Shown: positions 13,801-49,800 of the stretch, in pieces
Position numbering within the stretch: position 1 is the stretch's first letter
Layout of the letters: every line of letters begins with the position of its first letter
From: Chiridota heheva
Lineage: Eukaryota > Echinodermata > Holothuroidea > Apodida > Chiridotidae
Length of the DNA stretch: 64,000 nucleotides
Assembly (NCBI GenBank): GCA_020152595.1
Contig: JAIGNY010000483.1
Span: 430,001 to 494,000 of the forward strand
Direction: 5' to 3'
The notes under the pieces: generated by a model
Told to the model about the DNA's origin: nothing
Seen by the model: the letters and a program-made list of their open reading frames with translations, nothing else
The model's database searches: none
Position numbers and translations under genes: made by a program

Positions 13801-16800
13801 ACTGCTTAAAAATTTGGCCTCCAATTTTGAAGCAACAAATTAACCACATCATTCCACAAGATTAACTTTGCATCATAACATTGTGGTATAAATAGTTCTA
13901 TAGTTCATTTCACCTTTCTCCAGCAGCAAAGACAAACAATGCCAGCATTGATTACGGTTACTACTTATAATACAAAGGATTGCCATTATATTCAGATGTG
14001 TGTCACTAAAAATACCATGTAACACCAGTTAAATCAGTTGTTATCTTAAAGGAGCCTTGGAGAGGTGAAATTGTATAGAGTTTTGTGGTTTGGGAAACAA
14101 AGAAATATATAACTTTTTCTCCGACCGGCCCTGCTCCATTAAAGGGCAGGTTGAGATGTTCCTGATTTTTTAAGCAGAGCTATTTCTAGTGCGAAAGACC
14201 TTCATTGGGAGTCACTTCCAGACAGCAATGGTCGTGAGATATGCCAGATGTGGAGCACTGGTTAGAGACCCACTTGGGATCAAACCTAGGTTCCCTAGAA
14301 AAGAAAGGTGAAGCTTTGCCATGACACCACATGGATATCTTATGGTGGTGAAGCTTTGCCATGACACCACATGGATATCTTATGGTGGTGAAGTTTGTTT
14401 GTTTGTTTGATGAGGTCTTAACGGCACCACGACAACGAAGGTCAAATTGTGCCTGAGAGGTCAGATCACTTTAGAGGTAGTAAGGAAAGAGACCAGGGGA
14501 AGAATGAGAGAAATTCAAGAACAAAAGCCAGAAAGCTGTGATCGAGAGAGGAGGTGCATGGGAAAAACTAAAAACAGAGTAGAGAGGGGGTGGAAGAGGA
14601 GGATTAAATATGGTTGTAGAGGGATGCATGCTGAAGGAAGGAGACTATTTTATCTGGAGGATTTTTTTGGAAGAACTCAGCAATTGAGTTGTGGGGGGGC
14701 GAGAGAAGCTCTGGGAAGGTTGTACAGGGGGCAAGCAAGGAGAACGTGTTGGATTGTAAGGATGCAGTGGCAATTGTTACAGAGGGGTTGGGGAACCAAT
14801 AAGGAGGTGGGAGTGAGTGAGGTGGGTGTGACCAATTCTAAGACGGGTAATATGAACGTTGTCGATACGAGAAAGGTTGTTGATGGTGGATTTGATCGGG
14901 ATTGTGGGCTGGATAACATGGAGTTTGTTATCAATTTGGAAGTTCCATAAGGTTTGCCAGCGGTCACGAACAAGAGAAGCGATAAGCGGTTTGATGTCAG
15001 AGAGGGTTTTGGGAAAAGGGGACACCACATGGATATCTTATGGTGGTGTAGCTTTGCCATGACACCACATGGATATCTTATGGTGGTGTAGCTTTGCCAT
15101 GACACCACATGGATATCTTATGGTGGTGAAGCTTTGCCATAACACCACATGGATATCTTATGGTGGTGTAGCTTTGCCATGACACCACATGGATATCTTA
15201 TGGTGGTGAAGCTTTGCCATGACACCACATGGATATCTTATGGTGGTGAAGCTTTGCCATGACACCACATGGATATCTTATGGTAGGTAGATTGGGTGTT
15301 TTACATCTCTTTTTCAACAACTAAAATTATTGTTCACAGCCGTTTCATAAACCAGTTGTGAAGCACTGGTGAATGAAGAACCCAGGACCTACTATGACCA
15401 CTATACCATGCAGATCTCCTACAATACTAATCTCTTTGCTCCCTTACCATTCATCCACAAACATGTACTATCCATCCATTGTGAATGAAGACCCACTGGG
15501 AATGGAACCCAGGACCTACTATAACCACTACACCACGGAGATCTATAATACTAATCTGTTTGCTCCCTTATCATTGGTCTACAAACATGTACTATCCATC
15601 CATTGTGAATGAAGACCCACTGGGAATGGAACCCAGGACCTACTATAACCACTACACCACGGAGATCTATAATACTAATCTGTTTGCTCCCTTATCATTG
15701 GTCTACAAACATGTACTATCCATCCATTGTGAATGAAGACCCACTGGGAATGGAACCCAGGGCCTACTATAACCACTACACCACGGAGATCTATAATACT
15801 AATCTGTTTGCTCCCTTATCATTGGTCTACAAACATGTACTATCCATCCATTGTGAATGAAGACCCACTGGGAATGGAACCCAGGGCCTACTATAACCAC
15901 TACACCACGGAGATCTATAATACTAATCTGTTTGCTCCCTTACCATTGGTCCACAAACATGTACTATCCATCCATTGTGTGTGAATGAAGACCCACTGGG
16001 AATGGAACCCAGGGCCTACTATGACCACTACACCACGGAGATCTCCTACAATATTAGTCTGCTTGCTCCCTTATCGTTGGTTCACAAACATGTACTATCC
16101 ATCCAATGTGAGTGAATCAAGACCCACCAGGAATGGAACCTAGGACTACTATGACCACTACACCACGGAGATCTACAATGTTAATCTGATTGCTCCATTA
16201 CCGTTGGTCCACGAACATGTACTTTCCATCCATTGTGTGCCTGGACACAAACTGCATAGATCCATTCTCTTCAGAATGGTTTATATTCTTTAGGTGAGCA
16301 ATGCTTTGAGGAATCTACAACAAAAAAGAAAACACAGTAATAAAAAGATAACATCCTAATAAAACGATAATACCATATTAATGATTTCGAAGGGTGGATC
16401 ATTCCAATGGTGGGCCAGCATGATACAAAGCTAGATTCCTACTTTCTGTTTTTAAAAGGAAAAGCAACTAGAGTGAGTTTGTCAGTTGAAGATGTCAAAG
16501 GTCAGTTGGGATGATAAATTGTGAACATGTCTTGTAGATAAGAAACAATAGAAGATACAGGTCAGAAGGCAAAAGTGCACTCTAAGATGACAAGGTAGCT
16601 ACTGTAACACAGCAAGTACTGGTGAATGTGGTGAACATGAGTGCGCCGTGTAACAACCCACGCTGCTTTGTTTTGCATAAACTGAATATATTTAAAAGAT
16701 TAGTTCAGTGGTCAAGCAAAGTTATCTTATATGAAAGAAGGCTTCAAAAGAAACAAAATGGTGCAGAAACTACTTTCATATCTTATTCCGTTAATAAGGT

Positions 16801-46800: not shown

Positions 46801-49800
46801 TCAACGTCGTCGCCGGCTATTGACTCATTTTGACCCTTATGTCAATGGTCAACTCATCCCTATCTTAACATGTTGAACAGTCATCCTGAGAATGGTGAGT
46901 CTAATTTGTTATTCATGGAATTACATGTGGGAATTATGAACCCCCAACTCTTCGATGTAGGAACTAATCTTCCACCCCCTCACCCAAATAAACTGTTATC
47001 CTAGTGGTTAGATTTTCCCCCTATGTCAAAGTCAACTCACCCAAGAGAGTTTTGACATGTTGAAGGACCATTCGGAGAATAGTGAGTTTGTCTAATTTGT
47101 TATTCATAACTCTTGGATGTAGGAATCCATCTACCCCCACCCTCCCCCCTCACCCAAATAAAATGTTATCCTGGTGGCTCCCGACTCATTTTTACCCATA
47201 TGTCAAGGTCAACTCACCCCTGAGAGTTTTAACATGTTGAACGGCCATTCGGAGAATAGTGAGTTTGTCTAATTTGGCATTCATGGAATTGCAAGTGGGG
47301 ATCATGGAACCCAACTCTTGGATGTAGGAATTCATCTTCTCTCTCCGCCTTTTCTCAATCTCGCTGTGATTCTGCCTACAAAGGATCGAGAAGAAAACAA
47401 AATCAAAATTCAAAATCAACCAAAAGGCTTATGCACCGGAGGTGGGCGCAATCTTTTGTTTCAATCATACATGAAACAAATATTATTAGACTTCTTCCTA
47501 ATACAGACAATTATGTTTGCAATTAAGGCTGACGGTGATACTCAACAATTTGCTACAAATGCTACTTTGTTCAGTGTAGGAGAGTTTGCTGCTTTAGGCT
47601 GTTACACATCGAACACTGTGCACAATTAATTGTAGGAAATTAGACATGAAACAAATGTTAGAAAATATTTCAAATTCATGCTTACAATGATTAGGTTTGC
47701 AATTAAGGCTATCTGATCTGATATTAGAAATTAATTTTGCTAGAAATGCTACTTCTTTAAACGTGAAGAGAACTTTGTTTTTATAGTGGAGAGCAATTTC
47801 CTGTTGTGTTTTTTTTTGCTAAAGAATCAATGTTCAATTATTATCTGAAAGGTCATCAATGTCACCCCATCAATAAAAACGAGGTCAAAATGTTTCTTTG
47901 CCTTTGTTTTACTCAATTTTGTTTTAAAAATCGATCTATATATCAATACATTACGATCCTTAGGTATGCAAACCTAAAAGAAGTTGTATCTACGATTGCT
48001 CTGATAAAGATTTCAATTATTTTCTCCATATTACTTTCTTTTATAGCTATGGAATATTTTCTCTTAGTATTCATCAGTTTCCCAAAAATAAAAAAAATTA
48101 TACACAAATTGAAACAAATTTCACAAAAAGAAGCAAATTTCATGAGCATGAGGGATTTAAAAAAATTAAAAGAAATTTAATAGAAAATTGAAGAAAATTT
48201 CCAGGAAATGAAAACATGAAAATTGAAGCAAATTTCATGGAAATTAAAGACAACTTCTCGTTAGTTAAAGAGATTTTCCCAAAAATTTGGACAGGAATTG
48301 CACAAAAATTGAAGCAAATTTTACGAAAATAAAAAAATTGCACCATACATAATTGAAGCAAATTTCACAAAAAGAAAGAAATTTTACAAAAATTGAAGGT
48401 AAAATGCACAAAAATTAAAGTAAATTTGTGAAAAAATTAAGGAAATTACACAAAAATTTCACAAAAATCAAGAAAAATAAAGCAAAAATACCCACTTTTG
48501 GTTTGAATATGGATGCTTTCAATTTCATTCATTTAAATTTTCATATATGGGCCTACTCATATTTTTGAGGGGCAAAACAATACTTTCGCCCCCCTAGCAT
48601 ATCACCCCTTTGACATAGGCGGCACAAGTGGGGGGAGGGGGCAGGGGGACCAGGCTCTCCCAATAATTTCAATGGAGGGGGTAGGACTCCCTAATAATCA
48701 TTTGTATGATTTTTGGTATATTTTTAATCACTCCGCGATTTAATTCATATGATCTCTTTATATGATAGCCTAGATCATGCAGTCCACATTTACAATATTC
48801 TTTAATTATACAAAACACAAACTTCGAAGTTTTGTAAAACATTTTCTGTAATGGTCCCCCCCTGACTAAAGTGGAAAATGTCCAGTCATATGGTTATAAA
48901 AATTACTTGCATTACGTCTGATCAATGCATATCAGTGACATCTACCCGGCCTGGCCTGATTCTAACACCTGAACACATTATAGCGGGCTTTATTGGATGT
49001 AGGCACTATTGACTATTGACTACTGGCCTACATTAATTTTCTAACATTTTAAAAAGTTGGGTTGCTCACTTGAATTAAAACATGGGTAAAATCATAAGTG
49101 AATTAAGACCTCCAACTGTTTTTTATAAACTAAAAGCTGCCCATTCTATTCTGTTACTTTTGCAATAAAATTTTGTTTACAAATAGCCTACATTAAACAG
49201 CAAACTTTTTGCAGAATATTATGAGTCCAAATAGTTTTTTTTTTTTTTTTTGCAGGCCTGTGTAGCCAGGACTCTGAGCAGGGGTTCCTTCTTGACGTAT
49301 AAAAAGGCACTTCATTCCTGCACCTTGAAAAATTTATATGGGAATGCGACGTTCTACATCAAGTTATTCTCCTGGAGAGAAGACTATAGATTCGTCAAAT
49401 AGTCAGAAACAGAACCGTTCCAGTACTTTAACAAGCCCAAGTGCTTATTATATATTTAGATTTCAAAAGAGCACTTTCTCGGAAAAAGTGCGTTCTACAG
49501 AGAAAAGTTTGAAAATGTAAAATAATTTATTACTGTAATAATATATTGTGCAATATTGTATTTAATACATGAAGTAAGACACCGAGATATAGAGGAGGGG
49601 GCAGGATATAAAACAGGTTAGTTTTAAAAGTTTGACAAATTCACACATTTATAGTAAACTAGAACAGTAAATACTGTCATGGTAGGCATGCCCATGCAAA
49701 TTGAAACCCATATTATATCATATCATATCTCACACTAAGTCCCACATGGCATCCCTATGTGTCACATAACATCCCACCCCATGTCCCACATGACATCCCA

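Follow-up and report, generated by a model that had tools for sequence, protein, structure and literature searches.

Four exons of a single gene run at their 3′ ends into tandem arrays that repeat their own donor splice site. The gene, BMAL/ARNTL, lies on the minus strand of a 64,000-nt window (the whole stretch of DNA analyzed here, from contig JAIGNY010000483.1). Exons X2, X6, X7, and X8, four of the ten placed, continue into tandem repeats whose units combine the exon tail with the GT donor. Self-comparison placed all four arrays at the 3′ edge and none at a 5′ edge (0/10). A first-pass annotation of the sequence had described arrays holding the exon end and GT donor at these four exons, always at the 3′ edge, and tblastn, self-BLAST, and Tandem Repeats Finder (TRF) bore out both statements within BMAL. 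The arrays are an already named kind of minisatellite, the mirage, and are notable for their number in one gene. We propose, with a probability of about 0.7, that they arose from random tandem duplication that is tolerated on the donor side of exons and mostly selected against on the acceptor side.

The identity of the gene was established by fusing exon peptides, which matched BMAL1 (4f3l_B) in phmmer with an E-value of 5.1e-90. A tblastn search with human BMAL1 as query located ten exons; the others among the 13 counted in the first-pass annotation were not recovered. The exons with arrays and the arrays themselves are listed in Table 1. Per unit, the exon part of the X6 array was mostly 10–11 nt, with a single match of 19 nt, and that of the X8 array 36–38 nt, as measured by self-BLAST with the exon ends of X2 and X6 set 1–2 nt late. 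The X2 repeat is too diverged for TRF and was detected by self-comparison. Its second copy is split into two pieces, with starts at 131 and 69 nt from the end of the exon, its third copy starts at 124 nt, and the GT donor is present in copy 2 and absent from copy 3.

Table 1. Exons of BMAL that continue into tandem repeats, and the repeats themselves (positions in the window; a slash marks the exon–intron junction)
Feature	Position	Strand	Description	Method
X2 exon (bHLH)	47218..47375	(-)	donor GGG/GTGAGT	tblastn; edges read from sequence
X2 repeat	46815..47346	(-)	3 diverged copies, offset ~180 bp, <=~130 nt exon + donor	self-BLAST
X6 exon	33297..33470	(-)	donor CCAG/GTAGGG	tblastn
X6 array	32766..33306	(-)	36 bp x 15.0, ~10 nt exon + donor	TRF, self-BLAST
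X7 exon	24271..24410	(-)	donor AAAA/GTAAGT	tblastn
X7 array	23069..24296	(-)	175 bp x 6.9, 26 nt exon + donor	TRF, self-BLAST
X8 exon (PAS-B)	16202..16314	(-)	donor AACG/GTAATG	tblastn
X8 array	15364..16240	(-)	124 bp x 6.9, 36-39 nt exon + donor	TRF, self-BLAST

We were able to compare three of the arrays with a second copy of the region. Contig C1437 (28,924 bp) aligns to the window at 6.4–36 kb, with longer flanking alignments that are mostly 85%–95% identical, and we interpret it as the second allele, although it may be a close paralogue. Between the window and C1437, copy number differs at X6 (15.0 vs. 3.0), X7 (6.9 vs. 3.0), and X8 (6.9 vs. 4.8), and it differs at purely intronic arrays as well (6.5 vs. 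31.7 copies of a 70-bp unit and 70.6 vs. 8.4 copies of a 14-bp unit). A search of the assembly for a second match to the X2 region found none. The different copy numbers on two contigs identify the X6, X7, and X8 arrays as unstable minisatellites, and they also make an assembly artefact very improbable. Reasons to suspect one are that assemblers struggle with tandem arrays, that a single assembly supplied both haplotypes, and that the X2 repeat lacks a counterpart for comparison; the other three arrays, however, recur on two separate contigs, and the outer units of X8 match.

Alignments of individual units, judged by eye, revealed further traces of turnover. The first and last units of X8 agree between haplotypes, and window units 4–6 of this array are near-identical to one another. 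Window units 4 and 5 of X7 share their first intron bases with the exon-bearing unit 1, as if they had exchanged sequence with it. The exon tail of X6 differs between haplotypes by a synonymous change (CGT vs. CGG), and the C1437 form is the array consensus.

The allelic comparison also showed differences away from the BMAL exon edges. C1437 carries a 28-bp, 14.8-copy array at 20392-20801 (L011 392-801) that was not seen in the window haplotype. Conversely, window positions ~25480-31035 are missing at the matching place of C1437; this segment partly resembles other stretches of the window, such as 7337-9509, and looks like an insertion of ~5.5 kb.

How surprising is the concentration of donor-edge arrays in BMAL? 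After merging TRF arrays and requiring a period of at least 10 and a length of at least 60, we counted 13 arrays in the BMAL gene span. Of these, three cross a 3′ exon edge and no array crosses a 5′ edge; X2 adds a fourth 3′-edge case. The earlier count of 4 of 9 large arrays depends on the cutoff. At least three 3′ straddles occurred in 324 of 100,000 random placements of the 13 arrays. Pseudo-exons of 130 nt placed in BMAL introns (n = 5,484, self-comparison) were straddled at rates of 2.0% (3′) and 4.1% (5′), and the 4/10 real exons depart from the pseudo-exon rate with P ∼1.6e-4 (1.0e-3 at a rate of 5%). None of these chance values is corrected for the gene and window having been picked as striking.

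We therefore turn to a blind sample of 81 exons of the same genome chosen without regard to arrays, comprising all 68 Myosin_head rows and the lowest-scoring 13 of 93 dynein rows. Several of the exons share a gene. For 50 of the 81 the flanking sequence analyzed was 1,500 nt, and for the remaining 31 it was mostly 330–400 nt. A PDB search with one of the dynein exons gave distant matches only. Arrays straddled the donor edge of 7/81 exons by script and 6/81 after inspection (L016, L023 with 30 bp x 45, L044, L049 with 58 bp x 5.3, L050, and L085), and the script found no acceptor-edge straddle (0/81). The seventh candidate, L088, was dropped because its match to the profile hidden Markov model (HMM) ran beyond the donor, and L029, whose array begins after the donor, was left uncounted. 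A widened search for repeats ending near an exon start returned one, at L058, which ends 44 nt before the match.

The neutral expectation was estimated from 180-nt pseudo-exons, placed 21,250 times across the 50 myosin loci that have long flanks; the pseudo-exons were straddled at rates of 3.5% for edges of the 3′ type and 6.5% for the 5′ type, or 5.0% pooled (confidence interval 3.7–6.4). At the pooled rate, the probability of finding 0/81 is 0.016 (0.005–0.046 over the interval), and that of finding at least 7/81 is 0.11 (0.03–0.27 over the interval). Judged against this rate, donor edges appear close to neutral, and arrays appear to be underrepresented at acceptor edges. The first-pass annotation had suggested comparing array edges at exon 3′ ends, exon 5′ ends, and random intron positions; in these 81 exons the 3′ end exceeded the 5′ end and did not clearly exceed the intron. 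Repeat cover measured by self-comparison over 330 nt agrees in direction: it amounts to 13.5% after donors against 4.0% before acceptors (sign-flip p = 0.011), and to 7.6% against 4.0% once the six donor-edge cases are removed. Farther out (>400 nt; the 50 long loci), repeats found by TRF cover roughly as much sequence before the exons as after them, or more; any acceptor-side depletion is therefore limited to the last few hundred bases.

These data bear on the idea, also raised in the first-pass annotation, that exon–donor junctions are preferred starting points of duplication. Such junctions could be mutational hot spots, with breaks linked to sequence or transcription as one possible cause; the 4/10 exons in BMAL against a local pseudo-exon rate of 2–4% speak for this idea, as does a blind donor rate of 7.4%–8.6% (6 or 7/81) that lies above the 3.5% of 3′-type pseudo-edges. 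However, the array edges are not fixed at the donor. They lie ~10, 26, 37, and 130 nt inside the exon in BMAL, and ~15, 30, 37, 37, 90, and 94 nt inside it in the six other exons (by hand). Edges scattered over the last 10–130 nt of the exon imply that the donor is contained in the duplication and is not its start. Moreover, the blind rate does not significantly exceed the pooled 5.0% (P = 0.11 for 7/81), and BMAL was picked for its striking look. We therefore consider hot spots unlikely.

The alternative offered in the same annotation, that duplications preserving a working donor are tolerated, fared better: it accords with the lack of acceptor-side arrays (0/81, P = 0.016) and with the lower repeat cover upstream of acceptors. 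It needs one amendment, in that the donor retained is the first, exon-proximal one and not the outer one. On this tolerance model, a random local tandem duplication would have its left end in the last 10–130 nt of an exon and its right end in the next intron, and would thereby copy the exon tail and the 5′ splice site into the intron. The array could then grow and be homogenized through unequal exchange and conversion among copies, as the haplotype copy numbers and unit alignments suggest. An array at the donor edge would leave the first donor untouched and hence be tolerated: the first copy would keep the whole exon with its own donor, all extra copies would be intronic, and the duplication would be harmless. 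On the acceptor side, a duplication would instead insert an additional AG and exon start ahead of the authentic ones, in competition with them, and we infer that selection would mostly remove such a duplication. Judging from the sequence, correct splicing of BMAL presumably uses the first donor. When the exon is read on into the intron, an in-frame stop precedes the second donor in 4/4 BMAL cases, and splicing from any donor beyond the first would consequently truncate the product.

Several observations weigh against tolerance as the explanation. The contrast of six versus zero gives p = 0.03 (sign test, by hand), in a small sample of non-independent exons. The same 330-nt cover measured by TRF is 8.3% downstream from donors versus 4.2% upstream of acceptors (p = 0.16). 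Pseudo-exon edges of the 3′ and 5′ types ought to be straddled equally often, yet their rates are 3.5% and 6.5%. If the neutral rate is taken at the bottom of its interval, the donor rate exceeds it (P = 0.03), and the 4/10 exons of BMAL exceed the neutral rate, an excess that plain tolerance leaves unexplained. When two equally strong donors compete, moreover, the downstream one is often favored. Finally, the lancelet cases include an array on the acceptor side, at an exon 5′ edge (PMC3087553), so arrays there are not lost in every instance. The donor-only polarity reported here is a first, small count. A stronger reading is unlikely, namely that the polarity is strict in this genome, with exon 3′ junctions acquiring arrays at or above the neutral rate and 5′ junctions never retaining them, and that in genes like BMAL a duplication bias or some use of the repeated donors actively favors the donor side.

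We also asked whether the repeated donors might themselves be functional and selected, binding the U1 small nuclear ribonucleoprotein (snRNP) for exon recognition or blocking premature polyadenylation in long introns. The intronic GT is kept in 29/36 copies of the four BMAL arrays (by eye, haplotypes pooled), including 16/16 copies in X6 and 8/8 in X7 over both haplotypes. On the other hand, it is kept in only 4/10 copies of X8 (both haplotypes) and 1/2 copies of X2, it is lost in the L050 copy shown, and the two haplotypes differ by as much as fivefold in copy number. Donor decay in some arrays means that function is not indicated. Selected U1-binding donor arrays are thus very improbable, and we rejected them as the main explanation on account of the intronic donors lost in X8, X2, and L050.

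The X8 unit has a further component, a piece resembling the B box of a transfer RNA (tRNA) gene (GGTTCCATTCCCAGT; likeness judged by eye). A similar tRNA-like piece lies within an unrelated 115-bp, ∼20-copy array on contig G000:C3309 (L006/L007), and the piece occurs elsewhere too. Rfam and ARAGORN found no RNA genes in the window. We rejected a transposon origin, a check that covered the X8 unit among the four BMAL units.

Two other arrays of the window deserve mention. An 88-bp, 4.9-copy array follows directly after the X2 repeat (46373-46799), and a GC-rich 17-bp, 113-copy array at 60045-61995 is open in minus-strand frames of 666 and 684 amino acids.

Arrays at splice junctions are natural experiments on how the spliceosome chooses among near-identical donors, and they have been proposed as raw material for new introns. 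If true genome-wide, the donor-only pattern would provide a count-based measure of the tolerance of duplication at donors versus acceptors, and if the host is not a lancelet, mirages would extend beyond lancelets. Lancelets have GFP genes. Neither innexin (PF00876) nor GFP (PF01353) had a match in the genome, in searches whose controls were likewise without a match; a search for COX1 found no match either. Innexin homologues are reported to be lacking in echinoderms, hemichordates, and a few other groups, with one present in a lancelet (PMC6391747). As weak evidence of absence, the innexin and GFP results suggest that the host is probably not a lancelet and may belong to the echinoderms or hemichordates. 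A literature search, covering titles and the starts of abstracts among the matches listed and mostly outside subscription journals, returned no count of donor bias and no mirages outside lancelets.

Ordinary intronic minisatellites, which are common in the sampled introns, share with the BMAL arrays the copy-number differences between haplotypes (as seen for the 70-bp and 14-bp arrays); they differ in that the edge of a BMAL array lies inside a coding exon. A second point of reference is intron gain by tandem genomic duplication of AGGT sites (the Rogers model as cited in PMC3087553; potato RdRp, PMC4974935). Here, too, a local tandem duplication copies splice signals, and the lancelet authors propose mirages as seeds of new introns (PMC3087553). 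In BMAL, however, the duplicates sit within existing introns, the protein ends of the preceding exons align with BMAL1 (X2, X7, and X8), and no new intron inside a former exon was seen; it is very improbable that the arrays are first steps of such a gain.

The closest counterparts are the lancelet mirages, tandem repeats across exon–intron boundaries described for the globin genes BflGb6 and BflGb9 (PMC3087553) and for PGBD5 (PMC3902484), with Adh3 and TnC cited there as further cases (PMC3087553 / PMC3902484). Since these are published, the novelty that the first-pass annotation attached to repeated donor-end arrays within one gene was overstated. Lancelet mirages change in copy number between haplotypes, keep many splice signals, and apparently leave splicing undisturbed (PMC3087553, PMC3902484). 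The likeness covers the boundary-spanning repeats themselves (here 4/10 BMAL and 6/81 other exons), units of 10 to ∼160 bp, differing haplotype copy numbers, and splice signals retained in many but not all copies (here GT in 29/36). In lancelet mirages outer units escape homogenization, and the X8 alignment, judged by eye, suggests that they may do so here. Involvement of both exon edges is reported for lancelet mirages as a feature rather than a strict requirement, and it is absent here. In contrast to the lancelet cases described there, four mirages lie in one gene, and all are at 3′ edges, with arrays at the 5′ edge of 0/81 sampled and 0/10 BMAL exons.
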